From Apostichopus japonicus (lineage: Eukaryota; Echinodermata; Holothuroidea; Aspidochirotida; Stichopodidae), in the NCBI RefSeq assembly GCF_037975245.1, contig NC_092564.1, positions 22,779,984 to 22,843,983 of the forward strand: a stretch of DNA of 64,000 bases, given 5' to 3'. Positions 1-63,675 of the stretch are shown here, one piece after another (position 1 is the first letter of the stretch; each line of letters opens with the position of its first letter). The notes under the pieces are model-generated. The model was not told the DNA's origin. It searched no databases and was given only the letters and a program-made list of their open reading frames with translations. Both the position numbers and the translations under genes were made by a program.

Positions 1-818
1 TACATTCATCTCCACTTCTATCGGTCTCCACTTCGAAATATTCTGCTGTGACGTCACTCAACTGTTGATATTCTCCTAAATCAACAACGTCTTTTTCTAT
101 CTGGTTGTTTGGGATCTCTTCAAAAATTATCGATAAAGTCGTCTGATCTGGGACATCTCGTCTCGCCTGATCATCGTGGACATGCAAGACACTTTCGTAA
201 GAGTTTTCCGTTTGCCCGTGGCTGTCGGTTGTTTTCTCATCATTTTGATCACTTCTAAGGGGAATTCCCTGGTATGCACATGCATCTTCTGCAATCTCAA
301 AATACTCGCTGTCATCCTTCGAGCTCTTCATCTCACTCACCTCCATCTTGCTGTCAGTGGCCGATGTAGACTTCATCAGTGCGGACAACTTTCCCTTTGA
401 AGAAGATGGTAGCCCAATGGACATGGATGAGGTTTCAAAGCTTGTCCTGGTCCGACAAACACGCAACCAACCAGCCCATATGACTCTGACATCATTCTGC
501 CGGACACCGAAGAAGACAAAGATACAGAATCCTTGTAGTGAGTTAAAGGTGCAAAATAAAATGTTGGAAAGAGTTTTGAGTCCCAAAATGGAGACATATC
601 CAAAGATCCAAGTCATTCCAAGTAAAACAGCAATAACGATTGCATTCTGAAACCGACGCAGCATCTCTCTGCTTTTATTGGTTTTAGCGACTTTCTTCCT
701 CCCACATGTCAATTTCGTTATTACCAGGATGAATATTATGAAATTGCAAAGGATCAAGAACGCCACTAATCCAAATACAAATATCAGAAAGACAAGTGAT
801 TCTGAACGTGGAAAACAA
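1..818 (-). CDS. Exon: transmembrane helices 5-7 and cytoplasmic tail (partial)
   Basis: Phase 2 in, with acceptor cctttgcag; the frame stays open to the window edge. It encodes L-V-F-L-I-F-V-F-G-L-V-A-F-L-I-L-C (TM5), a basic loop C-G-R-K-K-V-A-K, A-V-L-L-G-M-T-W-I-F-G-Y (TM6) and F-N-S-L-Q-G-F-C-I-F-V-F-F (TM7), all typical of adhesion GPCRs. The tail is Ser-rich and then strongly acidic, with five Y-x-x-hydrophobic motifs (YFEI, YQGI, YESV, YQQL, YFEV). A strong potential donor, ATGGAG|gtgagt, at 341/340 could end the exon early, but the 113 further open codons and their composition favour read-through. The stop codon lies outside the window. Confidence 0.95.
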
Positions 819-3800
819 CTGCAAAGGAAAAGAAAATTAATGCATTTTTAATTTATTGGTATTACAAATTTTAAATAGACTGTTTGCAATAATTTCAGGT
901 ATTAAAACATGGACTGTACGGATACATATGAAATAAACCATATAATATTGCTCTTCATTAAAAATCAATACTAAACGGTTCCTTACTACAAAATGTGTTG
1001 TATTCGAAGGTAACTAGTTTATTGATGGAAAAGTTTGACCAAAAGTGAGATATCTCCCATACCGACATGTTCATGAATCATTTGCATACGCTAATCGAAA
1101 ATTACCTTAAAAAACAATATAACACTGCATGTTTAAGAGAAAGTATTGCACAATGTTGACTCAAAACCCCCTTTCAATATCTTGTCCTAACTCAAGATAT
1201 GGTGGATAATAATAATATGATATACCGTGAAAAAATATGTCAGATGGTGACATCAAACTCTGCTGTTTTTAGATGATTACCTGATACATCATCAAATGTG
1301 ACAAAAAGCTATATGGCAGATATAGTTATGACCTAAATATGCAAAACTATTCCAGCCTTCTTGTTAAACAATCAAATTTATCCAACGGAATATCTCATGA
1401 AATGTGTATTTCGTTTGTTAAGATACTAAACTTCAAAGTTTACGAAAATGCTATGTCTCTATCCACACTTTAGCTATCTAAAATTATAATAATGCAATAC
1501 ACAAATCAAGGCGTCCTTTAAATCTGTCATATTTATATGGTTTAACTCACAATGTGCTACTCACCATGTAGATTAAATTCGCTTACATTTTATTATGAAC
1601 GTGTTTTTACTGCAATGTCACAATTTCATGGCGACAATTTAAATTAAAACTCTGAGTCTGTCATTTCTGATAGCAGGAAAATCCCTAATATAACTCTACT
1701 TGTTGACCTGTTTAGTACAACTAATACAACTGAGTATTGGTTCGAGATTCAAAATTCACTTTTGACCGTTCTCTAAATATATAACTAGTTGCTTATTCCT
1801 GCACTGTACCTGCAGGAATAAGCAACTAAACGCCAAACAGCTGTCTCGACCCGACAGATATGTGTGCCAATAGCAAAATGATCAAACCACCAGAATTGAT
1901 ATGATTTAATTTATGCCATATTTAATCTTTATTAACCTGCGTCAACGGCCAAGACTTTCTTGAAGGAATTAATATTTACAGAATTTTAGTCATTGTATGA
2001 CATAGTCCAAGAAAAAAAATTGAATGCTTTTAATTTGTCTACAGTTGTTATTTTTTTGGGTTTTCTCCATTAAAATATGTTAGATCTCTGGAATACTCCT
2101 TTAAGGCCAACTTGATGATCATGTAAGCTCTTCAATGTAGGCCTAAATCTTAATATTCATCCATTGCTTTATATAAGCTCTGATTACTTCTTTTAAGTTC
2201 GTATAACCAATAGGGAATCCTTGGATGACATTCAACACCATTATAAAGACACTGTAAACATGTAATTTGAGGCGTTTTCCATTGAGCTTGTGTTACATCC
2301 GAGAACCTGACCTATGATGGTCTATGTATTAGGATATTTAGTCCAGTCACTTTAATTGATGAACCCCAATTGTAAAAGAATAGTCTCAAAAAATTAAAAG
2401 TGTTATATAAGTACCAGCAGGACTGATAACAGTCCTTTTAAACGGTCTTAATTAAAATTAATGTTTTTCCTTGGTCATCCTTTAATATATTTACTATTTA
2501 CCTTTATTACATAGACCAAACAGAAGACCAAATTTAATTTAATTTAATTTGACATATATATTAAATTTCTTTCTATACCGTTCATTAGCTATGTCCTGAT
2601 GCAGGATTACTGCTACTAACGGTATCTTATGGAAAACTTACTAGTCGCAACTTGCATACGAGTCTGGTGAATACGACACACATGCAACAACAATCACAGC
2701 TGGAGCACCTGCAAATAGAAAATATGTATACAAATTACCTGCTAACATGTTTTCTTAATCATGGTTTCTTTGCAAGTGTAATTCCTCTAAACATGATATG
2801 AACATTTCAATCATCTTATTCATGAGATGAGTGCTTGGTCGGATTTTAGTTACCGCACTACAGATCATTACTTTTATCAATGTGTTGTTAATAATTCATA
2901 TTAAAAAAGTAATAATGATATTATTTACTCAATATTTTAATGTCGAAGAATGCTTATACAGTAAAATACATCTTTAATTGTAACGGTAATGCCTTAACCT
3001 AAACTGAATTCACCACGAAGTTTGATATCAAAAATTATTTTCCGTTTACTTTTTATTGTGGAATTTTAGCAGTAATCCCCAGAGAGTAGAAAGCCAATGT
3101 AAAGGCGTATTGAAAGCCGTTCTGATAATGTTCTACATTTGATAAGTTTTACAATTAACTCATGTCTTACTAAAATTACTTATAATGTCCTCATATTAAA
3201 CCGAAACTTATGCACCCCCACTGAGAGCTGTCTCTAACTATTGCCGTAAATTGGTAACTTCTGGAATAATGTGTTCATGTTACCTTTTGTAGCTGTTAGA
3301 GATACCAAAGTTCAATATTTCCTACTTTGTTAATAATGTATAAATTGTCAATTCAGACAATTGATCTCACGTTGTATAACAGAAATCAATAAATGAGATG
3401 GAGGGGAAACAATTATTATTTGTTATTATTTCTGACTCACTAGGAAAGCCGTGGACAGTCCACACTCTAGGGCTCCAGGGTATGTATATTACAACCTTAT
3501 TAGAAAGTGGGAGTTTGTATTTCCTCTTTGTCCATTAACGGAATAGGCAAAAAACCCAACCAGAACAACAGTAGATAGTGCTACAATCTCCAACTTTCAT
3601 AGTATTTTCCAAATAGATTTTTAGTTTGAAACTTACATCGTCATATTTGACATAAATTTGACCTAACAGCTGGCCTATTACGTCTTTGTTTTGTCCAAAA
3701 AAAGTGACCATTTTTTTGTGCATCTGGCAGCCCTGACAAGCTCCACTTACTTATCATCATAGCTTCATTAAAAGCATCATTATACAACCAACCGAGGAAG

Positions 3801-6800
3801 GTTGTAGAGGATCAGCCTTACTTCTACCTCCCATCCCACCCCTCTCTATCTCGCTCCTCTAATTGGATAGCAAAGCTCCATAGAAGAATAGCAAATCTTC
3901 CTCGGGCAAAACCATATCTAGAGGTCTCAAAGTTTGACGAACTAAACTACACATTACAAAACTATTGACAAATATCTAAAAGCGACAATGCAAAACATAT
4001 CAAATATTAAGTATGAAGTTGTTTCGATGGTTAGAACGACAGACTAGTACATTATGACATACTGATGTGAACAGATACATATGTATGAGAAAACTCACCC
4101 CATCCAATAGCACAAGCTTTCAGTAAGAAGTTGCGTATTGTGGAGTTGAAAACTTTGACAAAGAGTAGATACATGTTTGCGGCCTCAATGCTCATCCAAG
4201 TCACAGATGCAAGAAGGAAGAAGTGAGTGAGGGCGCCAAAGGAGACACAGATACCTTTACGACGCGTTTGATTGATACCGATGACGAAACAAAAGTACAA
4301 GCCTAGAAGACTGATGCTCAGGTTGAGAATTATCTGCTTAGGTCTATTGCTTCGTAGCTTCCTGTGGTAATATCAAAAAATTGTTATCTTTAATTCTAAT
4401 GATTCAACGGATGGATTTTAAAATAATTATATTTTGTACGTTATGGCTTTAAGTTATTCAATCTCCGTTTCTACAATTTATTTAACTTTTCGAAATAACG
4501 TAACCATTACGAAACGTATTAACGTATATTTACGTATCGTCACTTGCAATTAGCTAGCATAAATCCACCTGCAATTAGCTAGCATACCTACACATGCAAT
4601 TAGCTAGCATACCTTCACCTGGAATAAGCTAGCATACCTACACCTACAATAAGCTAGCATACCTATTCATGCATTTAGCTAGCATACCTAGTCATGCATT
4701 TAGCTAACATACTTCCACCTGCAATTAGCTAGCATACCTATTCATGCACTTAGCTAGAATACCTATTCATGCAAGCAGCTAGCAAATCTTTTCATGCATT
4801 TTGCCAGCAAACCTATTCATGCACTTGACTAGCATACCTTATCCTGCATTGAGCGAGCTTACCTTCAATTGTATCTGGATAGCGTACCTACTTCTGTATT
4901 TAGCTCGCATACCTACTCCTGGATTTAGCTAGCATGACTACTTCTGGATTTAGCTAGCAAACATTCCCCTGTATTGATAGCTAGTATACACACCACTGCA
5001 TTGAGCTAGCATACCTACTCCTGCACTTAGCTCGCAAACCTACTCCAGTTATCTGTAGTTAGGTGTAGCATACGGCTTCACTATCATTAGCTAGCATCCC
5101 AATATATACATGAAGCTACATACACACTCCTGCAATTACCTAGCTTACCTCCATCTGCAATTAACTAGCAACCTTCACCTGCAATTAACTAGCATACTTC
5201 TACCTGCAATTAGCTAGCATATCTCAACCTGCAATTAGCTAGGATACCTACTCTTGCATTTAGCTAGCGTACCTACTCATGATTTTGGCAAACGTATTTT
5301 CAACTGTATCTGGCTAGCACACCTACTCCTGCATAAAGCTAGCATACTTTCACCTGTATGTCGGTAGCTTACCATCTCTTTAATTTAACAAGCATATCTC
5401 TACCTGCATTTGCTCATAACGGTTTTCACATCTGCATTTTCATCCTAATTGCCAGGCACTCAAGGTTTATACAGCGTGTTGCGTTGACCAGCTGTTTTTT
5501 TTGTTGTTGCAAATTTCATAATAGCGTCAGTGCCTCAATCCTTGCCTTATTGTAAATGTTAAGTCATTGCCTTGTTAAGTTACTAATTAATTGCTACTTA
5601 CAACAATCAAACTGTCTTTATGTGTTGTATCCTACACTCCCCTCCCCTCCCCAAACCCACTTACCACCCTGCCATAATGGTATCAAAATACTAGCCCATG
5701 AAATAATACACCACTGACCCTCTTAATCAACAAAACTGATCTTAGTCATAAATAATATTTATAACAGGCTTACTTGCTTGAGAGATAAGTTACTATGATA
5801 ACGATGAGGCCCATAACCGATATAATACATCCGATGATGCTAAATATATCCAACGCTTTGCTCTCGATGCTGCCATGAACATCCTGAAATGAAACAGATA
5901 AACATAAATTTTGTGTTAGGACCAGCGTCATCTTTTACATTCCTTTACAGATAAACCATCATTTTTTTTCTAGAGTTTTAAGTTTTCACTCGTGCGGACC
6001 GGAGAGTGAAGAATTGGTTCTTCAGCGGTTATTTTATTTGTAAAGTTAAAACAAAGTGGTTTTTTAAAACTTTCTACACAAAAATTATATGACTGTATAA
6101 TTGTGTCAGAGTGTGGTACCTAATTCAACATAGGCATTTGAGCATGGTTTTCTGTTGGTGCGTACTTATAAGCGTTTGCTATATCATTCTATCCCATAAA
6201 ATTGGAGTATGTGATTCAAAACCATTTATTTTAGTATCATGTTAACTACTCAGAACCAACACTTGAAATGTTTGCTCAGGTTATTCCACACGTAGCAGGG
6301 TTGACCGAGATTATCAAGTATTTCATGTCAAGTTTTACGTTGATGGATTTGTAGAGACCATGCATGACCAAGTACCATGATCTGTCGTGACGTCAGTGAT
6401 GACGACAAGCAAATATGCTAATCGAATGTTAGATTAAAATGTTCAATCTAACTAAGTTTAATTATTTCATTCACTAGCTATGATTTTATGAAGTGACGAA
6501 CTGTTGGAAAAATGATCAGAATTATGAAACTTCACTTTCTGTTTTGATAATAAACTCACCATCTCATTATCATACAATATTACCTCATTATTGGACAACA
6601 TTACCTAAATACTGGACAATATTTTCTCATTATTGGACAATATGAGGCTAAAAACAGGTGTTTGGATTTGGTCGGCAATTTTATCAAGCTTAGAAGAAAG
6701 CAATAGTGCCATCCGTTTCTCACCTTTACGTCACTCACTAACTTTGCCATGTTAAAGGGGACACGAGTCCAACTATTATGTTAACATATTTGTAAGAGTT

Positions 6801-9800
6801 CTTTGTAAAGAACAGCTCTGAAAATCTTGGTCCGTTTGGGAGAAACCTTAGTTTAAAAGTCATGTCGAGGAGCTGTCAGTTTGGTGAATCTATGACGTTA
6901 TATCGCTACTAGGATCTAAAACATTTACTTTCTCTTTTTTTTTCGTTATTTGAAAGTAAAATGTTGACAGTGTTGACATGGAACAAGTGCCATCATCAGG
7001 GTTATGATAAAAGATTCAATATTTTACATTCTGCATTTACAAAAGCCATATCAGGAGATAAACATTGCTGTTAAATAAAGGATCATGGAACTGAAGCATG
7101 GATGGCTCGATGATATCATATTTAGACTTGATCAAGTCTTCAGCTTTGTTTGTGAAGGAACATGAAATATGTGTTGTCTGTCCATTGGAATGAGATGTAT
7201 CTGTTTGGGGAAGTTGTTCATGTTAGTTATCTCCATGAAGTTGACTGACTGGTGATGATGACTGGGTTTGTGTCTCCTTCAATCAACAAAAATTAAACTT
7301 GGACTATTCGATAAAATGTAGATGGGGAAATTTGCTATTGAATTAGTTCTTATACTCACAACAAGAACAGCAAAGTTGGTAAGATGGCTGAATTTACATC
7401 TGTAAGATCCGTAATCCAGACCTCCTACCAATTTACCTCCATCATCTGCCCATCCTTTGTCGGTTGTGTTCCAGTAACAGCACTTAGTTTCTCTACACCA
7501 AAATGACTGAGAATTGCAAATATAATTAAACACAGTAGGAAATTTACATGGAAATTTAACATCTTAAAGTGCTTACTTTTTTGTTTGTAATTTAGATAGC
7601 TAGATAATACTAAAACGCAATACGTTGGTTAGCAATACTGGAACACTGGTAGCATTCTCGTAGTAAATGTAACACACTAGTGATGACTACAACGCGTGTG
7701 TGGTAACCAAAGCGAGTTTGTGATCAATATAGAGCTTTAACCAAAACATAACGATGTTATCAATGGTCATCGTTGATAAGCAATATTATTACATGATGAT
7801 AACCAACACGAATTAAGTCATTACCAAAGATTATGTAAATCGCCGAAGGCGCTTAATTGATGACCATAAAGGCGCATTGATACGACTTACACACAGGAAA
7901 GTGAAACCACTACACGTGCGTGTCGGAACACAATCGGTTTTGACAATATCATTTCTCGAAGCGCGATGCTATACACTAATGATGACGTCAACTTGAGCAT
8001 AAACGCACAGGTAATGCATTGACCTGCAATGCTTTAAGAATATTGTGAAGGCAATTTATTATTTTTTTTTTTTTCTTCGAAGTACAGCAAATAGTTGAAT
8101 AAAACAAGAACTTGGGCACGATTATCATGTTCATTTGGATTTACTGGCAGGTAACTGGTGTTTCTTGCAGGGTGTATGAAGTAGGAAAACAGGTAGAGAA
8201 TCATACCGGAATATCCCAATTTTGGTGCAGCTACGATGTACCTTATCTGCTATGCACAATAAACAATAATTATACTAACGGAAAAATAAGTTTATCTTGT
8301 GCCTTCAGCACTGTAACGTCATATATGGTGATATTCAAAATTGCATGAGTGATAAGCAGCACACACTACATACATTCAAAACCCATTGTCAAGACGCATA
8401 GGTGTAAACCAAATCATAATGGTGATGTCTAAGACAACCAAGGCCCGTTATTGATAACCGCGAGTTAGGAATATCATCACATTAATGCAAATTGAATTGG
8501 AGGAATGTTTGGTTGTAGGGTTATAGTTTCACCGGACAGTATTTGTTTGGAATTTTACTGTAGGTTGAGAGTAAGTGCAAAAATATACCTCTATTGGACT
8601 ACTTGTTGTCTCAATGTTGGAATTATCTGGAAGGTCCTTGATTTGAATGTCTGTTGTTGGAGATGCTGAGATGATTAGACTGTTGACTTTCTCTGTTCTC
8701 CTAGTAGGGTCTTGAAAAAGGACATCAGTTCGATGAACCGTAAACACCAGAGCAACGAGTACCTGAGACACTGCAACAAATAAAAGAACAATTCTAACAT
8801 CAAGCATATAAACTTCAGCTAGAAATTTCATGTACACATATTACAAGGAGTCTGTGCTGCTGGAACATTCATGGTATTAATCCTGATCTGCTTCTAGCTG
8901 AATCAAGTTGTCTCAATTTGGTTTTGAGGACCATATCTAAATATTAACTATGTCAAGAAGTGAAAAAAAAAACCTAATAGTTAGCAATTGTTCATTAAGG
9001 CTGACACGAGCAAACCCAATCTGATGAATGTCTACTGAATTACACTCCCATAGTAGTCCCTTCTGACCTGTTGTATTCCAGGTGTGTACATAATGAAGCA
9101 AGACAACCTATGCTGTGCCACTGAGAAGTATAGGAAATACTAAGGTTGGATGAAAGATAAACTAAACTCTACCATTACTGGAATCCGCCGAAATTCTCCT
9201 TCCCACTTCGTGCGGTACTTTTATTGATGCCTTGACTTCACCAGCACTTTCTTGTGTAGCCTTTTGTAGACTAGGGGTCAATACTATTTTAGTTTGTGTG
9301 TCAAAATCTTCGTCGACGTTCCTATCTTTACCATCTCCGAAAGGAAGCTTGTATTCCACAGTTGCAGAAATAGAAATATCTATTTGTGCAACAGTTGCAG
9401 CAATGTTCGGTGTCTTATGGGAGAAGTTCTGGCCACTATTTCCTACGTTATCCAGCTGATGACTGAATGCTTGTAATATTTCTGAAGAAGCTTCCTGACT
9501 TATATCGATATTGGAATCTTCGGTGCCTGATGTTGAATGCACTACATTATCAATAGTATTTACAACGGCCACTGTTACCTATATGCAGAGCAAGAAACAG
9601 GAAGATGTTAGACTAAGCTATCAGAATGCATATCACATTGTTAATTGCTCCCTGTTAGTGAATTGCGGTATGAAAGTAGCTCATTTACAAACAGATAGAA
9701 TGCAAATATATTGGCTTCGTTCAGTTGAATGTGTTATTAGTATAATATCATGTTTCATGATGTTTTTGTCATTTTGTTGCAATAAACATATGCTTGATTG

Positions 9801-12800: not shown

Positions 12801-15800
12801 TGGGACACTCTTCTACTTAAATTTGTATTACTTTCAACTCCCTGATCCGACAACCACATATCAGATAATATACCGTACTCTTCTGAAATCTCTCCACCCC
12901 GTTGGTCCCTCTAGTAACGATCATTGGACACTATGTATGCTAGCTCTTTAGCGCTATGATCTAGTTACGATCATTTGATACACTATGCTATCCTCATTGG
13001 GCCCTGCGCTTGCTACGATCATTTAATACACTGCAAGCTATCCCCACTGGGCCCTGCTTTAGTTACGATCATTTGATGCACTATATGATATCCCAATTGG
13101 GCCTTGCTTGAGTAAAGATCATGTGATACACTGCGTGCTATCCCAATCGGGCCCTGCTCTAGTTACGATCATTTAATACACTGTATGCTATCCCCACTGG
13201 GCCCTGCTCTAGTTACGATAATTTGATACACTATATGCTATCCCAATTGGGCCCTGCTTGAGTTACGATCATGTGGTACAGTGCATGCTATCCCGAACGC
13301 GCCCTGGTCTAGTTACGATCATTTGGTATACTGTATGCTATCCCAACTGGATCCTGCTCTGGTAAAGATCATGTGATACACCGAATGCTATCCCTATTGT
13401 GCCCTGCTCTAGTTACCAACATTTGACGCACTGTATGCTATCCCCATTGGGCCCTGCTATAGCTAGGAACAATCGATACACTGTTTGCTGTCTCCCATTG
13501 GGCCCTGCTCTAGTTAAAATCATTTGGATCCGTATGCTATCACCATTGTGCCCTGCATTAGTTACAATAATTTGATACCTGTATGCTATTCCAGTTGGGC
13601 CTTTCTCGTGTTACCATCACTTGATACACTAAATGCTATCCCCCAGCGGTCCCGCTCTAGCTACGGTCATTTGATACAATTTATGCTATCCCTATGGACC
13701 CTGCTATTGTTACCATCACTCAATACACTGTATAATATCTCTGTTGGGCCCTGCTCTGGTTACGATCATTCGATACTATGTATGCTTCCCCACTGGGCCC
13801 TGCTCTCGTTACGATCATTTGATGTATGCTATGGACATTGGGCATTCCTATTGTTTCCATCACTTGATACACTAGATGCTATCCCCATTTCTCCCTGCTG
13901 TAGTTACGATCATTTGCTATACTGTATACTATCCCTTTGGGCCCTGCTCTGGTTACGATCATTCGATACACTGTATGCTTCCCCACTGGGCCCTGCTCTC
14001 GTTACGATCATTTGATAAATTGTATGCTATCCCCATTTCTCCCTGCTGTAGTTACGATCATTTGCTATACTGTATACTATCCCTTTGGGCCCTGCTCTCG
14101 TTACGATCATTTGATAAATTGTATGCTATCCCCATTTCTCCCTGCTGTAGTTACGATCATTTGCTATACTGTATACTATCCCTTTGGGCCCTGCTCTGGT
14201 TTCGATCATTCGATACACTGTATGCTTCCCCACTGGGCCCTGCTTTCGTTACGATCATTTGATAAATTGTATGCTATCCCCATTTCGCCATGCCGTAGTT
14301 ACGATTATTTGCTATACTGTATACTATCCCTTTGGACCCTGCTTTTGTTACGATCGTTTGATACACTGTATGCTATCCCCACTGGGCCCTGCCTTCGTTG
14401 CGATCATTTGATAAATTGTATGCTATCCCCATTTGGCCCCGTACTAGTTATGATCATTTGCTTCACTGTATACTATACCCCACTGGGCCGTGCTCTAGTT
14501 ACGATCATGTGAAACACTGTATGCTATGGACATTGGGCATTCCTATTGTTTCCATCACTTGATACACTAGATGCTATCCCCATCGGGCCCTATTTAGGAA
14601 CGTTTGATACAATGCATGCTATCCCCTTTATGCCCTGCTCTCGATACGGTTATTTGAACTGTATGCTATCCCCATTGAGCCCTGCTCTCGTTATGTTCAT
14701 TTGATACACTGTATGCTACTGTATGATATTTCCACAATAAAGCAGGTTAGAGTGGTATCCTTCGCTCTACATAACAATAGGGTAAAATCATTGTCATCAA
14801 TCGCCTCATCCCGTACTCCTTTCTTCCCGACACACGTATTGTATGAAAACTCCTGCTTCAAAGTTGCAAACTTATAATGCAAAATCACAAGGGCAAGCAT
14901 GTGAACCAAATTTTAAGTTTAAGTAGATGGTCGAGATGAAGATATCAATCATTTTGTAGACTCACAGTTTATTGTAATATTCCAGTCCTCCCATTTGTCT
15001 AGAATCTGAGTTAAGTTGTGTACAACGTTATAGTCAACTTCGTCTGTACTTCGTTTCTTGTAGATGAAGATTTTTGATGAGTCAGCTGCTTGCGTCACGT
15101 CATAACCTTCGTTTAGCAACTACAAAATGAAATGGGGAGGGCTCAAATTGTTAAACTAGTTTGCTGGAAATCCAATTTAGTCCAAATATAACCTCTCTCA
15201 ACATATTCTAAATACCAATATCTAATTATACCTCCATGCCAGAAACCAGTATACCCCATGCCAGGTACCACTATAAAACTATGCTGGCCACCATTATAAA
15301 GCCATGCCAGATACCAGTAGAAACCATGCCAGAAACCATTATAAAACCATGCAAGATACCACTACAAAACCATGCAAGATACCAATACAATACCATGCCA
15401 GATACCAGTCTATTCCCATGCCAGATACCTTAAGGTATCTTTATACACCCAGTACTGATATTACCCCCCTCCTTTGACTCTCCCACACATATTACCCAGA
15501 GACATTGTATCGTTAAGTAGATACTCTTACCGAGTACTAACATCATGCTTCTCGAGGATACTCCCTCGTTATATTAATAAAACAGTAAGCTTTCGATCCA
15601 CCAAAACAACAACTTATTTCCATTTAGGAGAAACTGCAGTAATTTTCGTGGTTATCAGGTTACGTTGTTTGTTTTTACACGGTTCAAAATAAAAATAGAA
15701 TATACGTACCATGCCATTGATGGTGGGGGCAATTGATTGGTTGAATACCGATAGAGTGAATTTCAAGAAATCTTTGGAGAAAAATCACAAAACATATTAT

Positions 15801-60800: not shown

Positions 60801-63675
60801 TAATATAGCTATGGTCAGCCTGAAATGTCATATAGGACCATTCCGATAGTTTTCTGTGATTGAAAGGGAGCATAAGGAGAGATTTTTGGTTAAAGTAGTA
60901 GAACATAACTTGTGTAAGTAAGATCTGTTCAGATCAACCACGGAGTTTAGCTTCTTGACAAACTACCCTTATCTGGTGCTTATTTGATACAAGTATTTGT
61001 CCGTAATAGTTTTCCTAAATTCCCATCAAATGAACTAGGGTTTTAATATTCTTTATTGATAATAGAAATAAAGTTTCGAGGAAAGACTCAATCAAACAGA
61101 AAGCATTAGATAACGTTTTTTTAAACTTCTTTGCACTATGTAAGAAATTCACTCAAAATTACCTTTAACTGTGATGGTGAAAGAACATTCATCAGTATTT
61201 TGTGACAAATCTTCACAGGAACAAGTCACTATTGTTACTCCCATTTGAAATTCACTTCGGCTTGTTGCATCACAAGCAGCTTGGATGCCTGTGTCAATGT
61301 TGTCAGAACATGATGTCACAAAGTCAACTCTTGCAGTGGTTCCTCTTTGCAGCGTTGCATCAGCATCAATATCATTTGGACAGTTAACCGTAGGATTCGT
61401 CACATCTTCATATTATAAAAGCAGACAAGAAAGGTTAACAAGCAAATGTACTCAGATGTGATAGTACTGTAGATTTAACTTTTGGAAGGTGCTAAGAAAT
61501 AAAATATCTCATTGTCTCACTCAAAATTATCAACAAATTGATGGTCACAAAAGCTATTGTATGTCGTCTAAAATGAGTTGCCAATAAATGCAGTTGCTAG
61601 TGTAAGCCACATATCATAAAATCTACCAGTAATGATGATTTCAAGCGAGAAGAATATACAATACTGGTTAACACTTGTCGTCACAACTTTGCATTCAAGG
61701 AAGTAAACATCATGGGTATAGGTATAGGTAACAGCTTTATTGTTCATCAATAAACTTAAAACTTAATATAGCTATGGTCAGCCTGAAATGTCATAAAGGA
61801 CCATCCCGATAGTCTTCGGTGTTTGAAAGGGAGCTTAAGAATAGATTTTTGGTCAAGGTGGTAGAACATCGCATGTGTAGGTAAGATCTGTGCAGATCAG
61901 TCACAGAGTTTAGCTTCTTGTAAACTAGCCAAACATTTTCTGGTGCTTGCGAAGATAATTTGTTCTTGAAAATTTTCAGTAACTTCCCATTAAATAAACT
62001 AGGCTTTGAATGTTCTTTATTGATAATGGAAATACACTTTTGAGGAAAGACTCAATTAAACAGAAAGCATTAGATAACGTTTTTTTAAAATTTCTTTGCA
62101 TTATGTAAGAAATTCACTCAAAATTACCTTTAACTGTGATGGTGAAAGAACATTCATCAGTATTTTGTGACAAATCTTCACAGGAACAAGTCACTGTTGT
62201 TACTCCAATTTGAAATTCACTTTGGCTTGTTGCATTACAAGCAGCTTGAATGCCTGTGTCAATGTTGTCAGAACATGATGTCACAAAGTCAACTCTTGCA
62301 GTGGTTCCTCTCTGCAGTCTTCCATCAGTATCTATATTATGTGGACAGCTAGCCGTTGGGGGAACCACATCTTCAAGTTATAAACGAAAATAAGAAAGAT
62401 TAACAAGAAAATGTACTCAGATGTGATTCCACTGTAGATTTAACTATTGGAAGGTGATAAGAAATGACACTGCTCATTGTCCAATGATAAATAGCCAAAA
62501 AAACGATGGTCAAAAAAGCTATAGCATGTCGTCTAAAACATGTTGGCATTAAATGCAGTTGCAAGTGTCAGCCACATATCACAAATTTTACTATTCATGA
62601 TGTTTTGTTTTTGGCCGGAAGAATCTCCAAAACTGGTTTACACCGGTCTTTACAAGTTTTCATTCAAGGAAGTACAACATTATTGGTGTAGATAACAATT
62701 GCAGACAAAAGGTCAATCGTTACAATAGCTTTGGTCACTTAAAAGTTTATATACCCTCTATAGTACTGATCACTTTCTTAGTCAGTCTAAATCCATTCAA
62801 TATAGTTAAACTTTATAGCTGCTCATCAACTCTCACAAGTCTCTCTTTCCTTCCATATTCAAAACTATTGAATTCTTGTAAAATGATACTTCGGGATCAT
62901 TTCGTGAACTAGAATGTTGCGCAAACATCTTCTTAATAATAAACATCTTCCTTTCCCAATGTACACAATTGGCGAAAAACAAATAAATTGAATAAATTAA
63001 GTGTGGTGAACAACTGAAGAATCATAGATAAGATCATTACGTTGCACATCTTATCACTACATTGCAATAAAGTTTGCACTACTGGAGTAAACATTCTGAT
63101 AGTCTGCGATGATGTCATTGTGCTGTTATCATGACCTCTGACCAATATCAAAGGCCCTATTGCAAAGCCACAAACTTTAATACATAATAAATACACAATT
63201 AAGATTCGTTACAGTAACATTAAATCTTAAAAAATTACTGAAGATGTTAGGCACAAGAGATGAACTAAGTACTTGATAAGTGTGCCTGGTAGTACCTTTC
63301 TCTTTGGAAGGAAGATAAAATGTTGCTCGCTTCAGGATGGGTACAAAATTGCAAAGATAGTGCACCGATTAACCGATTTACCTAGTTTTCGGCAGATCCA
63401 TCTTTCACGTTGACAGTTTCGCGAAGAAGACCCCGAGCCACATTTTCTGTAGTGCAAATTTCTACCAAAGCATACCAAGTTATTGGGCAAATTGTTAATG
63501 TTAGCCCCACTTGTAACGATTGCAGTAGATGAAGGAGGCCTATTTTCAGTATCTGTGCATCTGTCATTTTCATCTGCTACTGTCGGATTTCCCGCTGAAC
63601 ATTTCAAGCGACCTGCATAATGAAATGTACGTCTTTGTGCATTGTTGCATCCCACAGTTTGACAGGATTTGCGAT
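1..63675 (-). CDS. Giant HYR-array adhesion GPCR gene (62 exons, partial at both ends)
   Basis: Locus-level entry; the exons are listed separately. Read from right to left they give a Cys-rich N-terminal module, 48 HYR domains, an Ig domain, an unassigned segment, a HormR-like region, a GAIN domain, a GPS, seven transmembrane helices and a cytoplasmic tail. This is family B2 (adhesion) GPCR architecture: autoproteolysis at the GPS leaves a non-covalent N-terminal/C-terminal fragment pair, and the new N-terminus of the membrane part acts as a tethered agonist. All 61 internal junctions have GT/AG and consistent phase, and no exon contains a frameshift or stop, so the gene looks functional. With about 4,937 codons in view it is in the size range of the largest known adhesion GPCRs, such as ADGRV1. 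Ligand and G protein are unknown. No orthologue symbol can be assigned. Confidence 0.9.
819..2641 (-). other. Intron
   Basis: 1.82 kb of AT-rich sequence containing the hairpin at 1786-1828 and a short aattt repeat at about 2529-2551. Otherwise nothing is recognised. Confidence 0.65.
1786..1828. repeat. Perfect 18-bp inverted repeat (hairpin)
   Basis: Arms 1786-1803 (tagttgcttattcctgca) and 1811-1828 are exact reverse complements around a 7-base loop. Intronic; function unknown. Confidence 0.9.
2642..2708 (-). CDS. Exon: transmembrane helix 4 and extracellular loop 2
   Basis: A 67-base exon, phase 1 in and phase 2 out, with acceptor atttgcag and donor GACTA|gtaagt. It encodes G-A-P-A-V-I-V-V-A-C-V-S-Y, completing the family's G-W-G-x-P motif from the previous exon, and then D-S-Y-A-S-C-D-Y, which supplies the second Cys of the TM3-loop disulfide. 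Confidence 0.93.
2709..4098 (-). other. Intron
   Basis: 1.39 kb of AT-rich sequence. I see no repeat, RNA or coding signal; the minus-strand open frame at 3535-3723 has no family resemblance. Confidence 0.6.
4099..4361 (-). CDS. Exon: transmembrane helices 2-3 and start of 4
   Basis: A 263-base exon, phase 2 in and phase 1 out, with acceptor taccacag and donor ATGGG|gtgagt. It encodes I-I-L-N-L-S-I-S-L-L-G-L-Y-F-C-F-V-I-G-I (TM2), the extracellular-loop Cys in K-G-I-C-V, H-F-F-L-L-A-S-V-T-W-M-S-I-E-A (TM3) with N-M-Y-L-L-F-V-K-V-F, and C-A-I-G-W-G at the TM4 start. These are hallmark family B2 GPCR motifs. Confidence 0.97.
4362..5773 (-). other. Intron carrying a minisatellite
   Basis: 1.4 kb between the TM1 and TM2-4 exons, mostly occupied by the repeat at 4541-5415. 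No other feature is seen. Confidence 0.7.
4541..5415. repeat. Minisatellite, about 25 bp unit, about 35 copies
   Basis: Degenerate head-to-tail copies of a unit with aattagctagcatacct followed by a short actcctgc-like spacer. The palindromic core gctagc is the best conserved part. Copies decay toward both ends. Confidence 0.9.
5774..5883 (-). CDS. Exon: transmembrane helix 1
   Basis: A 110-base exon, phase 0 in and phase 2 out, with acceptor atttcag and donor AGCAA|gtaagc. It encodes D-V-H-G-S-I-E-S-K-A-L-D, then the hydrophobic stretch I-F-S-I-I-G-C-I-I-S-V-M-G-L-I-V-I-I-V-T-Y, which is TM1 of the seven-helix bundle. Confidence 0.93.
5884..7359 (-). other. Intron
   Basis: 1.48 kb of AT-rich sequence with a short local repeat of attattggacaatat words at about 6565-6645. 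No gene is seen. Confidence 0.6.
7360..7506 (-). CDS. Exon: GPS autoproteolysis site and tethered agonist
   Basis: A 147-base phase 0-0 exon with acceptor ttctcag and donor CTTGTT|gtgagt. Its 49 residues carry the GPS: C-C-Y-W near the start, K-G-W-A-D-D-G, then Y-R-C-K-F-S-H-L-T-N-F-A-V-L-V. The His-Leu/Thr cleavage triad is intact, and T-N-F-A-V-L-V is a good match to the Stachel tethered agonist. Two of the four canonical GPS cysteines are absent: the one after W-x-x-x-G is Gly, and the second of the C-x-C pair is Phe. The exon boundary falls inside the Stachel segment, seven residues after the cleavage site. Confidence 0.95.
7507..8588 (-). other. Intron
   Basis: 1.08 kb. About 7690-7860 and 8405-8470 contain irregular, loosely repeated gataaccaa/gatgat words. 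The plus-strand 78-codon open frame at 8112-8348 has no recognisable domain. Confidence 0.55.
8589..8770 (-). CDS. Exon: GAIN beta-sandwich
   Basis: A 182-base exon, phase 1 in and phase 0 out, with acceptor tgttgcag and donor ATAGAG|gtatat. It encodes V-S-Q-V-L-V-A-L-V-F-T-V-H-R, then R-T-E-K-V-N-S-L-I-I-S-A-S, the V-N-S-x-[IV]-I-[SG]-A-S strand pair typical just before the GPS. The final residues lead directly into the GPS exon. Confidence 0.9.
9173..9578 (-). CDS. Exon: GAIN domain core
   Basis: A 406-base exon, phase 0 in and phase 1 out, with acceptor gcatatag and donor AATG|gtagag. It encodes about 135 residues: a helical start (V-V-N-T-I-D-N-V-V-H), a Ser/Thr/Asn-rich middle with Q-L-D-N-V and N-F-S, then beta-rich sequence ending near V-P-H-E-V-G. 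It spans the junction between the helical and beta-sandwich GAIN subdomains. Confidence 0.88.
9579..10878 (-). other. Intron
   Basis: 1.3 kb, AT-rich. I see no repeat or coding signal beyond chance open frames. Confidence 0.6.
10879..11034 (-). CDS. Exon: GAIN subdomain A helices
   Basis: A 156-base phase 0-0 exon with acceptor cttacag and donor AGCCAG|gtaaac. Its 52 residues include D-N-A-F-Y-V-A-E-V-L-V-N-L-T and N-V-D-I-V-A-Q-G-L-E-K-V, the amphipathic helices typical of GAIN subdomain A. Two N-glycosylation sequons, N-L-T and N-D-T, are visible. Confidence 0.9.
11229..11359 (-). CDS. Exon: start of GAIN domain
   Basis: A 131-base exon, phase 1 in and phase 0 out, with acceptor ttcacag and donor AATGAG|gtatac. 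It encodes D-R-S-Q-A-T-C-R-C-N-G, then F-K-E-A-L-W-D-D-P, then A-R-Y-Q-T-L-N-E, the helical start of GAIN subdomain A. A second in-frame donor, GTTCAG|gtacaa, lies 51 bases earlier (about 11280) and would also keep phase 0, giving a product 17 residues shorter. The longer form fits the family better. Confidence 0.82.
11506..11667. mobile_element. Possible MITE-like element, about 162 bp
   Basis: The left end reads cagtggcgtcgcca and the right end is the reverse complement of cagtggcctcgcca, a 13/14 match. The interior is G-rich on the left and C-rich on the right, so it could fold back. Its GC content is far above the flanks. There is no coding capacity, and the target duplication is unclear (ataaaa occurs near both ends but not flush). 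It resembles the short non-autonomous repeats with this terminal motif that are common in invertebrate genomes. Confidence 0.55.
12213..12290. repeat. 39-bp tandem duplication
   Basis: Two head-to-tail copies (12213-12251 and 12252-12290) that start attttacacaaacaca and contain gtacatatgtgtgaaat. They differ at two or three bases. Intronic. Confidence 0.85.
12431..12535 (-). CDS. Exon: HormR-like / pre-GAIN region
   Basis: A 105-base phase 1-1 exon with acceptor tatacgcag and donor TCAG|gtaagt. It encodes Y-C-K-E-E, then D-Y-G-R-I-E-F-P-N-T-F-L-G, matching the C...G-x-I-x-[WF]-P-x-T-x-x-G signature that starts the HormR/pre-GAIN segment of adhesion GPCRs. The next exon supplies T-C-R-C. The full set of HormR cysteines is not evident, so this is HormR-like rather than a clear hormone-binding module. 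Confidence 0.85.
12536..14965 (-). other. Intron carrying a large minisatellite
   Basis: 2.4 kb, most of it the minisatellite listed at 12903-14720. A C-rich tract lies at about 12744-12758. No coding signal remains outside the repeat. Confidence 0.7.
12903..14720. repeat. Minisatellite, about 50 bp unit, about 36 copies
   Basis: Degenerate tandem copies of a unit with gttacgatcatttgataca, then tatgctatcccc, then the palindrome gggccc. Around 13870-14450 there is higher-order structure (100/150 bp). Because three units equal 150 bases, open frames appear on the plus strand with repeated W-A-L-L-S-L-R-S-F-D; these are repeat artefacts, not genes. Confidence 0.88.
14966..15119 (-). CDS. Exon: unassigned extracellular segment, part 2
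   Basis: A 154-base exon, phase 0 in and phase 1 out, with acceptor attttgtag and donor AACT|gtgagt. It encodes 51 residues: L-L-N-E-G-Y-D-V-T at the start, a basic K-K-R-S-T patch, N-L-T and N-I-T sequons, and a W-E-D-W near the end. With the preceding exon it forms a segment of about 72 residues between the Ig domain and the HormR-like exon. No cysteine is present, which argues against EGF, CCP or LDLa. Confidence 0.82.
15234..15430. repeat. Minisatellite, about 23-24 bp unit
   Basis: About eight degenerate copies of a unit built around ccatgccagataccagta plus a short A-rich spacer, all in one orientation, inside the intron between the two unassigned exons. A short plus-strand open frame across it is a by-product of the repeat. 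Confidence 0.8.
15710..15771 (-). CDS. Exon: unassigned extracellular segment, part 1
   Basis: A 62-base exon, phase 1 in and phase 0 out, with acceptor ctccaaag and donor GGCATG|gtacgt. It encodes 20 residues after the split Asp, beginning F-L-K-F-T-L-S-V-F-N-Q-S, with an N-Q-S sequon. The small exon is supported by exact phase fit to both neighbours. I do not recognise the domain; a SEA-like fold is possible but unproven. Confidence 0.75.
15772..16514 (-). other. Intron
   Basis: 743 bases of AT-rich, apparently unique sequence. I see no coding or repeat signal. Confidence 0.6.
16515..16766 (-). CDS. Exon: immunoglobulin domain
   Basis: This 252-base phase 1-1 exon has acceptor gttaaaag and donor AGTG|gtaagg. 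It encodes 84 residues forming a C2/I-set Ig domain: D-P-P-I-I at the start (A strand), Cys at the B strand in F-D-L-S-C-D, Trp in I-S-W-T-R (C strand), N-Q-G-S-Y-V-C in the F strand, and L-V-I-S closing strand G. One Ig domain next to the HormR/GAIN region is common in adhesion GPCRs; it probably serves binding or spacing between the HYR rod and the GAIN domain. Confidence 0.92.
16767..18162 (-). other. Intron between HYR48 and the Ig exon
   Basis: It contains decayed array-type intron sequence: about 16970-17400 matches 62500-62935, and about 17690-18060 gives a second partial match. I see no seventh-strand HYR exon or pseudoexon between them. A C-rich tract sits at about 16829-16844. Confidence 0.65.
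18163..18405 (-). CDS. HYR exon 48 (membrane-proximal end of array)
   Basis: Old unit: C-P-D-N-I-D-T-G, D-I-E-A-A-C-N-A-S, S-G-F-P-V-G. It is spliced in phase 1 to the Ig exon. Confidence 0.92.
19073..19315 (-). CDS. HYR exon 47
   Basis: Old unit: V-A-L-C-S-D-N, I-D-K-G, A-V-C-N-A-R (usual sequon lost) and a V-T-V-T ending. Its acceptor tract and flanking introns are diverged. Confidence 0.92.
20043..20285 (-). CDS. HYR exon 46
   Basis: Compact-unit type with F-L-A-S-C, F-L-I-G and an N-V-S-V-N ending; more diverged than HYR44 and HYR45. Confidence 0.92.
20528..20770 (-). CDS. HYR exon 45
   Basis: Compact-unit type with S-E-L-P-V-G and R-N-A-D-D-C. Confidence 0.92.
21013..21255 (-). CDS. 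HYR exon 44
   Basis: Compact-unit type, D-V-T-P-P-M-A-S-C, with an N-I-S sequon at 12-14 and N-V-T near the end. Confidence 0.92.
21498..21740 (-). CDS. HYR exon 43
   Basis: Hybrid: its first third (T-H-P-T-A-S-C-P-N-D) resembles the upstream block, while the rest (A-D-C-T-A-I-S-G, I-V-I-C-S-C, F-N-V-T) matches the compact 485-bp units. Confidence 0.92.
22415..22657 (-). CDS. HYR exon 42
   Basis: R-K-F-P-V-G type; last unit of the T-H-P-T, N-G-T block. Confidence 0.93.
23378..23620 (-). CDS. HYR exon 41
   Basis: S-E-F-S-M-G type; twin of HYR30. Confidence 0.93.
24329..24571 (-). CDS. HYR exon 40
   Basis: S-E-F-P-I-G type with C-S-N-D (Pro10 to Ser). The acceptor reads atatgtag instead of the usual ttgaag. 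Confidence 0.92.
25309..25551 (-). CDS. HYR exon 39
   Basis: R-K-F-P-V-G type with T-D-A-S at 15-18. Confidence 0.93.
26269..26511 (-). CDS. HYR exon 38
   Basis: S-E-F-P-M-G type with D-I-N-T-N at 12-16. Confidence 0.93.
27251..27493 (-). CDS. HYR exon 37
   Basis: S-E-F-P-M-G-G type; T-N-A-R at 15-18 removes the extra N-A-S sequon present in its neighbours. Confidence 0.93.
28211..28453 (-). CDS. HYR exon 36
   Basis: S-E-F-P-L-G-A type with L-Q-N-G. Confidence 0.93.
29171..29413 (-). CDS. HYR exon 35
   Basis: R-K-F-P-V-G type with private G-T-I-A at 22-25 and E-D-V-S at 65-68. Confidence 0.93.
30129..30371 (-). CDS. HYR exon 34
   Basis: S-E-F-P-L-G-A type; differs from HYR32 in having Asn28 instead of Asp28. 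Confidence 0.93.
31108..31350 (-). CDS. HYR exon 33
   Basis: R-K-F-P-V-G type with V-N-F-E-A-S-C. Confidence 0.93.
32067..32309 (-). CDS. HYR exon 32
   Basis: S-E-F-P-L-G-A type with L-R-N-G at 19-22; 1,938 bp from its near twin HYR34. Confidence 0.93.
33056..33298 (-). CDS. HYR exon 31
   Basis: R-K-F-P-V-G type with T-V-S-C-S-C (Thr61 to Ser). Confidence 0.93.
34044..34286 (-). CDS. HYR exon 30
   Basis: First T-H-P-T unit, with an added N-G-T sequon at 21-23 and S-E-N-V-D at 34-38. The protein is identical to HYR41, 10.7 kb away. Confidence 0.93.
35012..35254 (-). CDS. HYR exon 29
   Basis: Boundary unit: D-I-R-T-D and F-E-A-S-C as in HYR4, and C-D-A-T-S-R-S-E-F-Q-M-G as in HYR2. It is the last T-N-P-T unit. 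Confidence 0.93.
35978..36220 (-). CDS. HYR exon 28
   Basis: Class gamma with C-E-D-M-S at 64-68; 2,902 bp from HYR25. Confidence 0.93.
36944..37186 (-). CDS. HYR exon 27
   Basis: Class alpha with A-N-C at 7-9; 2,902 bp from HYR24. Confidence 0.93.
37912..38154 (-). CDS. HYR exon 26
   Basis: Class beta; the protein is identical to HYR21. Its donor reads AAAG|GTAACT. Confidence 0.93.
38880..39122 (-). CDS. HYR exon 25
   Basis: Class gamma with private D-E-M-L at 16-19 and S-D-N-T-D (Ile37 to Thr). Confidence 0.93.
39846..40088 (-). CDS. HYR exon 24
   Basis: Class alpha with A-S-C at 7-9. Confidence 0.93.
40814..41056 (-). CDS. HYR exon 23
   Basis: Class beta with Thr18 and a private E-C-A-F at 73-76 (Ser to Ala). 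Confidence 0.93.
41780..42022 (-). CDS. HYR exon 22
   Basis: Class alpha: T-T-C-S-D-N at 31-36 and A-S-C at 7-9; the protein is identical to HYR24, 1,934 bp away. Confidence 0.93.
42748..42990 (-). CDS. HYR exon 21
   Basis: Class beta of the 36-43 kb region: C-N-T-T-S at 45-49, S-R-S-E-F-P-M-G, Arg18. Confidence 0.93.
43718..43960 (-). CDS. HYR exon 20
   Basis: Arg18/Lys52 type; last unit of the young block. Its donor reads AAAG|GTTAGT, whereas the next units use AAAG|GTAATT. Confidence 0.93.
44688..44930 (-). CDS. HYR exon 19
   Basis: Thr18/Lys52 type with the linked silent CCC proline codon; the acceptor tract has a private caaggaag variant. Confidence 0.93.
45658..45900 (-). CDS. HYR exon 18
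   Basis: Arg18/Glu52 type. Confidence 0.93.
46628..46870 (-). CDS. HYR exon 17
   Basis: Thr18/Lys52 type with the linked silent CCC proline codon. Confidence 0.93.
47599..47841 (-). CDS. HYR exon 16
   Basis: Arg18/Glu52 type. Spacing to HYR17 is 971 because of a longer A run near 46966. Confidence 0.93.
48569..48811 (-). CDS. HYR exon 15
   Basis: Arg18/Lys52 type, lying between two Glu52 units. Confidence 0.93.
49539..49781 (-). CDS. HYR exon 14
   Basis: Arg18/Glu52 type; last of the four-unit identical run. Confidence 0.93.
50509..50751 (-). CDS. HYR exon 13
   Basis: Arg18/Glu52 type. The intron on its right, toward HYR12, has a private base change (aactgccg for aactaccg near 50970). 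Confidence 0.93.
51479..51721 (-). CDS. HYR exon 12
   Basis: Arg18/Glu52 type; protein identical to its neighbours HYR11 and HYR13. Confidence 0.93.
52449..52691 (-). CDS. HYR exon 11
   Basis: Arg18/Glu52 type; one of four consecutive units (HYR11-14) with identical protein. Confidence 0.93.
53412..53654 (-). CDS. HYR exon 10
   Basis: Thr18/Lys52 type. The downstream intron lacks 7 bases near 53046, so spacing to HYR11 is 963 rather than 970. Confidence 0.93.
54382..54624 (-). CDS. HYR exon 9
   Basis: Arg18/Lys52 type; the protein is identical to HYR8, 15 and 20. Confidence 0.93.
55352..55594 (-). CDS. HYR exon 8
   Basis: Arg18/Lys52 type, but it carries the silent CCC proline codon otherwise linked to Thr18 units, so it looks recombinant. 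The spacing to HYR7 is one base short (969). Confidence 0.93.
56321..56563 (-). CDS. HYR exon 7
   Basis: Arg18/Glu52 type; the protein is identical to HYR11-14, 16 and 18. Confidence 0.93.
57291..57533 (-). CDS. HYR exon 6
   Basis: Thr18/Lys52 type with a private Asp14-to-Tyr change. Confidence 0.93.
58261..58503 (-). CDS. HYR exon 5
   Basis: First unit of the young 970-bp block. Arg18/Lys52 type, with a private I-T-I-K ending instead of I-T-V-K. Confidence 0.93.
59232..59474 (-). CDS. HYR exon 4
   Basis: It carries D-I-R-T-D at 12-16, F-E-A-S-C at 29-33 and R-K-F-P-V-G at 51-56. Its first 40 residues and the following intron match HYR29, 24 kb away, so the two bracket the younger T-N-P-T units. 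Confidence 0.9.
60200..60442 (-). CDS. HYR exon 3
   Basis: Threonine at residue 18 combined with glutamate at 52, a pairing not seen in the young block HYR5-20. The preceding intron (60443 onwards) is the type found around HYR22-28 rather than the type beside HYR5-20. Confidence 0.9.
61163..61405 (-). CDS. HYR exon 2
   Basis: A T-N-P-T unit with V-N-C at residues 7-9 and D-A-T at 46-48, which removes the usual N-glycosylation sequon. It shares S-R-S-E-F-Q-M-G with HYR29. Confidence 0.9.
62128..62370 (-). CDS. HYR exon 1 (most N-terminal)
   Basis: It is the outlier at the N-terminal edge: it opens D-V-V-P-P instead of D-V-T-N-P, closer to the general HYR consensus, and has F-Q-I-G where most units have F-P-x-G. 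This is probably an old edge unit that escaped homogenisation. Confidence 0.9.
62371..63381 (-). other. Intron between the Cys-rich exon and HYR1
   Basis: About 1 kb. Its HYR1-proximal half (roughly 62450-62935) is a copy of the array's intron sequence and extends beyond what the inner units keep. It matches the intron at the far end of the array (about 16970-17400). The remainder shows no coding signal; short minus-strand open frames at 62933-63365 have no family resemblance. Confidence 0.7.
63382..63675 (-). CDS. Exon: Cys-rich N-terminal module (TSP1 tail plus CCP-like)
   Basis: This 294-base phase 1-1 exon has acceptor ttccacag and donor CTAG|gtaaat. It encodes 98 residues with eight cysteines at 5, 10, 26, 40, 69, 79, 88 and 95. 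The opening DRKSCQTVGC resembles the last Cys pair of a thrombospondin type-1 repeat whose start would lie in an upstream exon outside the window. Residues 40-95 (Cys, Pro-Pro, Gly, a Leu-His-Tyr-Arg-Lys-Cys stretch, then Arg-Asn-Cys and Arg-Trp-Ile-Cys) are spaced like a degenerate CCP/sushi module, which often accompanies HYR. The exon call is firm from splice sites and phase; the domain names are tentative. Confidence 0.7.

Follow-up and report, generated by a model that had tools for sequence, protein, structure and literature searches.

On the minus strand of sea cucumber contig C4 lies a gene, here called g3, that by its sequence is an adhesion GPCR (class B2) with an unusual, recently amplified ectodomain containing 48 HYR domains. 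Read as a whole, the locus is rather probably a single adhesion GPCR gene whose predicted product is self-cleaving and carries a long HYR stalk that would bind matrix, sense force, and have grown by unequal exchange. The gene is a member of a C4 tandem cluster of six related loci (g0 to g5), which is reported here as new.

Gene model and receptor class

The window, that is, the whole stretch of 64,000 nucleotides that was analyzed, corresponds to C4:22779984-22843983 in a genome of 671.6 Mb and 35 contigs. For modelling, 10 kb of flank was added on each side, splice sites were listed, and the exon chain was then required to be consistent in phase. A single phase-consistent chain results, comprising 63 exons that encode 5,028 amino acids with zero internal stops. 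The predicted product opens with a signal peptide and a Cys-rich N domain, continues with the 48 HYR domains, and then has an Ig-like domain, a stem, a putative GAIN domain, the GPS, the 7TM part, and a tail. The window holds 62 of the 63 exons, encoding the N domain (1), HYR (48), Ig (1), stem (4), GAIN (3), GPS (1), and TM segments (4), while the signal-peptide exon lies just beyond it. A preliminary description had proposed 62 in-phase exons in one orientation within the window, which the splice-site and phase model confirms. Its placement of the gene at 1-63675 holds for the exon count inside the window but not for the extent, as the gene passes both window ends. The exons, in window numbering, are as follows:

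66515-66449 (C4:22846498-22846432), minus strand: signal-peptide exon; donor phase 1; 73% matches in g2, g0, and g1
63382-63675, minus strand: N-domain exon; 98 aa with 8 Cys; phase 1-1, AG/GT
18163-62370, minus strand: 48 HYR exons, from HYR1 (62370-62128) to HYR48 (18405-18163); 243 nt each
16515-16766, minus strand: Ig-like exon; phase 1-1; Ig_2 at 24.2 bits (Pfam cut-off 27)
15771-15710, 15119-14966, 12535-12431, and 11359-11283, minus strand: four stem exons, by phase chain; each matched in g2, g4, and g5
11034-10879, 9578-9173, and 8770-8589, minus strand: three GAIN exons, by phase chain; matched in g2, g4, and g5
7360-7506, minus strand: GPS exon; HLT tripeptide, with TNFAVLV as start of the predicted tethered agonist; PF01825 at 29.1 bits (cut-off 22.5)
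5774-5883, minus strand: TM1 exon, by phase chain; 7tm_2
4099-4361, minus strand: TM2-TM3 exon, by phase chain; dN/dS 0.05 vs g2
2642-2708, minus strand: TM4 exon; top score of three phase-compatible candidates; matched in g2, g4, and g5
1-818, minus strand: TM5-TM7 and cytoplasmic tail exon; runs ~260 bases left of position 1 to TAA

The signal-peptide exon is the better of two candidates, the TM4 exon the best of three, and the stem-1 exon the sole one listed; each of these choices was later matched in sister genes. Minisatellites occupy intron sequence at 12909-14718 (50-bp units), 4540-5347 (25-bp units), and 15234-15429 (23-bp units); the first of these arrays also contains the open frames of the plus strand at 13518-14512.

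A 7TM of the secretin/adhesion type is present in g3. The Pfam 7tm_2 model (PF00002) matches at 132.9 bits (E 1.5e-38, cut-off 20.6), and the top solved-structure matches are adhesion GPCRs, led by ADGRG2 as closest PDB relative of the 7TM part (E 1.7e-50). PDB alignments extend into the GAIN region (query 232-776 for ADGRG6, 389-779 for ADGRG2); the Pfam GAIN model gives no match in g3 at E 1. Two of the 48 HYR exons were tested against Pfam HYR (PF02494) and score 45.8 and 48.2 bits, with a cut-off of 21.7, and a PDB sequence search with HYR at E 1 yields no match. The N domain has neither a Pfam match nor a PDB sequence match at E 5. AlphaFold2 models of the N domain and HYR are poor, with mean pLDDT of 44.5 and 43.6, respectively.

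The GPS sequence HLTNFAVLV is conserved in g3, g2, g4, and g5. The usual Cys positions of a GPS include one in GC and two in a CxC before HLT. Inspected by eye, these same four genes depart from the four-Cys pattern in having other residues at two usual positions, one being the Cys of GC and the other the second in CxC; the g0 GPS has the usual pattern. Despite its two missing Cys, the g3 GPS passes the Pfam cut-off. Part of one article on adhesion GPCRs gives a GPS tripeptide rule of H-L/I-S/T, describes four conserved Cys, and notes cleavage in many, not all, of these receptors (PMC13197933). The g3 receptor may be called cleavable on the evidence of its HLT tripeptide, with a predicted cut after residue 4515 and a predicted N-terminal fragment of ~4,500 residues.

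Among solved structures the ADGRG group (ADGRG2, ADGRG6, ADGRG4) aligns best with g3, over the 7TM and part of GAIN, a likeness drawn from best PDB matches. We know of no HYR ectodomain in this group. ADGRV1 (VLGR1), likewise an adhesion GPCR, resembles g3 in the giant size of its repeat ectodomain, but its repeats are Calx-beta rather than HYR (two g3 repeats tested) and its solved chain is a far weaker match to g3 (E 3.9e-9). On these two grounds kinship with ADGRV1 was rejected. In Pfam, Calx-beta is absent from the two tested repeats (of 48) and from the Ig-to-tail part; it is among the domains named for adhesion GPCRs in the part of one article consulted (PMC13197933). Hyalin, from the hyaline layer of sea urchins, is an echinoderm HYR-repeat protein and has tandem HYR domains in common with g3; it is an extracellular matrix glycoprotein, whereas g3 is a predicted membrane receptor with a 7TM in the same gene model. 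Hyalin is described as a cell-adhesion substrate in the sections seen of two papers (PMC11212366, PMC9382459).

Constraint and history of the HYR array

Each of the 48 HYR exons is exactly 243 nt long and open, is entered and left in phase 1, is preceded by AG and followed by GT, and codes for six Cys, with 69 N-glycosylation sequons in total. A motif scan counts 48, and a profile built from these exons and run over the window and its flanks again counts 48, in agreement with the number first proposed. The repeat unit is ~970 bp, falling to 485 bp in units 43-45. Indels were compared between exons and introns in the first 42 of 47 units (three of the other five are 485 bp). HYR exons are under weak constraint on residues and strong constraint on frame, the latter because 0 indel intervals occur in 243 exon columns vs 32 in 760 intron columns (Poisson P 3.6e-5). 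Variable columns number 62 of 243 in exons vs 358 of 725 in introns. Within the array dN/dS is 0.80 (1,128 pairs), and in units 21-29 dN (0.029) exceeds dS (0.018), on few changes. An origin of the exons as chance or decaying repeats was rejected on the zero indels.

Mean identity among units 3-20 is 98.8% in exons and 97.8% in introns. The closest relative of an HYR exon, ties counted, lies within its own array for 46 of 48 exons in g3, 20 of 22 in g2, 7 of 11 in g1, 4 of 6 in g4, and 12 of 16 in g0. The stalk would have grown through repeated unequal exchange of single-exon phase-1 units. Such units can be gained or lost without breaking the frame, and stalk length therefore varies among the sister genes; it probably also differs between individuals.

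Near-identical repeats may mislead an assembly, and the number 48 could in part be an artefact of this kind, given that each of units 5-20 has a partner at least 99% alike and that units 10 and 19 are identical save for a 7-bp length difference. Yet this pair is the only one at 1.0 among the three best partners per unit, the units flanking its members differ, and units 21-42 are of other types; an assembly error of this sort appears very unlikely. A different source of variable length would be splicing, with one gene including its HYR exons in variable numbers to produce stalks of many lengths. The phase 1-1 symmetry of all 48 exons would permit it, and 46 of the 48 acceptors in g3 are AAG with weak pyrimidine tracts, scoring a mean of 0.53 vs 3.74 for 14 other exons on a simple ad hoc scale. 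In g2, however, the HYR acceptors are CAG in 20 of 22 exons, and acceptor weakness is therefore not general. Variable splicing is conceivable, but we are inclined to doubt it.

The C4 cluster and the probable continuity of the gene

In the stretches read, the six loci contain 48 (g3), 22 (g2), 16 (g0), 11 (g1), 6 (g4), and 0 (g5) HYR exons. A genome-wide search with TM5-7, in which 95 matches of 125 candidates were scored, found four other places on C4 at >90% identity and a fifth at 49%. At E 0.001, the N domain has three other genome matches, all on C4, and the Ig exon has five including its own, all in the C4 cluster. N-domain identity to g3 is 86% in g2 and 83% in g0.

The g2 gene is complete and, with 22 HYRs, mirrors the g3 model exon for exon. 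In all 22 of its HYR exons AG and GT sit where the model places them. Among its non-HYR exons, each of the 14 tested acceptors and 13 of the 14 tested donors lie at the predicted base; the stem-1 donor lies one codon further on, and the GAINb2 end and TM5-7 start were placed by hand. The non-HYR exons are under purifying selection: pooled over 15 of them (1,114 codons, the tail in part), g2 and g3 differ with dS 0.133 and dN 0.053, a dN/dS of 0.40 (Fisher P 1.9e-10). For individual exons the ratio is 0.05 in TM2-3, 0.62 in the N domain, and 0.99 in GAINb2, with TM4 undefined.

The remaining loci depart from this plan in various ways. In g0 there are a signal peptide, an N domain, 16 HYRs, GAIN exons, the GPS with usual Cys, and a diverged 7TM; the stretch read gave no match to Ig. 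The DNA of g0 is ~77-86% identical to g3 over the 5' half, sequence before the signal peptide included, and its TM5-7 is only 49% identical. The g1 locus has a signal peptide, a broken N domain of which only 37 aa were matched, and 11 HYRs, with an Ig exon 41 kb away from these; its 7TM exon is known from the TM5-7 genome search alone. In both g0 (C4:22618270) and g1 (C4:22703496), a C run follows the usual AG of the first HYR and leaves that exon out of phase 1. Among the six HYRs of g4, one is without AG, and all 13 Ig-to-TM5-7 exons are matched; g5 has matches to the same 13 exons, with zero HYR in 14.9 kb read upstream of Ig. The g1 and g4 loci look like decaying or rearranged sisters.

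The preliminary description had joined the HYR array, Ig, GAIN/GPS, and 7TM in one gene, and this is supported by exon phase, by the order found in g2, by purifying selection (0.40), and by the lack of an intervening signal-peptide exon candidate. A scan for such exons from the last HYR to Ig returned no candidate in 1,396 nt of g3 or 1,071 nt of g2; the same scan recovers the known signal-peptide exon, and one transcript is therefore favored. The HYR array as a separate gene was set aside on this result. With a stricter donor threshold, longer stretches upstream of Ig gave six candidates in g1, two in g4, and three in g5. Between HYR48 and Ig, g3 has four short terminal frames after acceptors scoring at least 2, one of them of 28 aa with an acceptor of 6.1; the corresponding g2 interval has no terminal frame at the same thresholds.

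Proposed function and HYR domains elsewhere

In the adhesion GPCR model, as presented in parts of two articles, the GAIN domain cuts itself and the resulting parts stay joined until pull or release (PMC13197933, PMC12716839). By analogy, the GAIN domain of g3 would cut between HL and T, with the two parts held together. The HYR stalk would extend far from the cell, and its partners might be either matrix that contains HYR (hyalin-like proteins) or the HYR stalks of other cells; a pull on the stalk would expose the tethered agonist TNFAVLV and activate the 7TM. HYR proteins are present in echinoderm adhesive matrix, according to the sections seen of two papers (PMC11212366, PMC9382459), and binding to matrix or to other stalks would therefore be the likeliest use. 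The analogy suggests a role in adhesion or mechanosensing toward HYR-containing matrix.

The locus might instead hold two neighbouring genes, one for a secreted N-HYR product that stops after the array and another, under its own promoter, for an Ig-GAIN-7TM receptor. A separate promoter of this kind is possible in a sister gene, since the receptor part of g5 has a candidate signal peptide at C4:22975898 and no HYR was seen in the 14.9 kb read before its Ig exon. The halves of g1 are 41 kb apart, the good acceptor (6.1) of the 28-aa terminal frame lies between HYR48 and Ig in g3, and in g0 a ~80% DNA-alike 5' half precedes a 7TM only 49% identical over TM5-7, such that the halves had separate histories. 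The g0/g3 pattern may be read as an exchange of halves between related genes, and would also indicate that the halves can part. Still, no signal-peptide exon candidate separates the halves in g3 or g2, g2 is without a terminal frame, and phases fit across the entire g3 chain; two genes at this locus are highly improbable. As to what a single receptor would do, an immune-type or self-recognition family, with clustered genes and changing arrays that recognise microbes or other individuals, could account for the tandem cluster of six loci with unequal repeat numbers and shared 5' halves, for its damaged members (the g1 N domain, the g4 HYR without AG), and for the excess of dN over dS in units 21-29, on few changes. 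Against this, the HYR copies are homogenised, not diversified (exon identity of 98.8% in units 3-20), and the pooled HYR dN/dS of 0.80 is below 1; a recognition family seems unlikely, and matrix adhesion or mechanosensing is the function we would propose.

Each of the three ingredients, adhesion GPCRs, HYR domains, and giant ectodomains, is already known on its own. A search of mainly open-access literature found no recognised account of an HYR adhesion GPCR. One article may name HYR for some adhesion GPCR (PMC12716839); "HYR" is absent from the portion searched of another (PMC13197933). A more speculative reading, to which we give a small chance, is that HYR arrays constitute an exchangeable, length-variable cassette, with exon amplification, promoter-SP-N-HYR halves moving between 7TMs, and non-7TM use on contig C20. 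If so, individuals would differ in stalk length, and exon copy number, perhaps together with exon skipping, would set receptor reach. Sister genes with 0 to 48 HYRs (as far as read) before a near-same 7TM form a natural series for relating stalk length to force sensitivity or reach. A domain familiar from the matrix and adhesive proteins of echinoderms, HYR is now tied to a predicted signalling receptor, and the possibility is raised that some echinoderm genes named hyalin may be receptors.

Genome-wide HYR counts are lower bounds, because scoring covered 150 of 1,534 candidates in the family search and 150 of 836 in the protein search with HYR. Close relatives of the g3 HYRs (77-88% identity) occur in at least three blocks on C20. 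The 10 kb read after the last HYR there (C20:34160400-34170399) contain Ser/Thr-rich frames and, by eye, a probable single-pass helix, and gave no match to 7TM; the last frame matches LRR_8 alone in Pfam, below cut-off. A locus at C2:11760320-11813500 has at least 25 HYRs, and after them, in the same orientation, come exons that pass the Pfam cut-offs for GPS (49.8 bits) and 7tm_2. The order HYR-GPS-7TM is the same as in g3, but the HYR sequence differs and the 7TM is ~40% identical. This locus is a candidate second HYR adhesion GPCR. It also has GAIN-like frames without a Pfam match, and the 13 kb read gave no convincing N-domain or Ig match. Within C2:11802300-11815299 the HYRs are unlike those of g3, many lying in paired units of ~3.4 kb.

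The STNHKDIG stretch of cox1 is conserved. Code table 9 keeps the cox1 gene on C35 open, and the codon for the Asn of this stretch is AAA, a combination that agrees with an echinoderm source; ARAGORN found nothing on the mitochondrial piece. Further cox1 pieces with in-frame TGA lie at C29:14745-31219; they may be copies in the nuclear genome, or the contig may be a mitochondrial duplicate.
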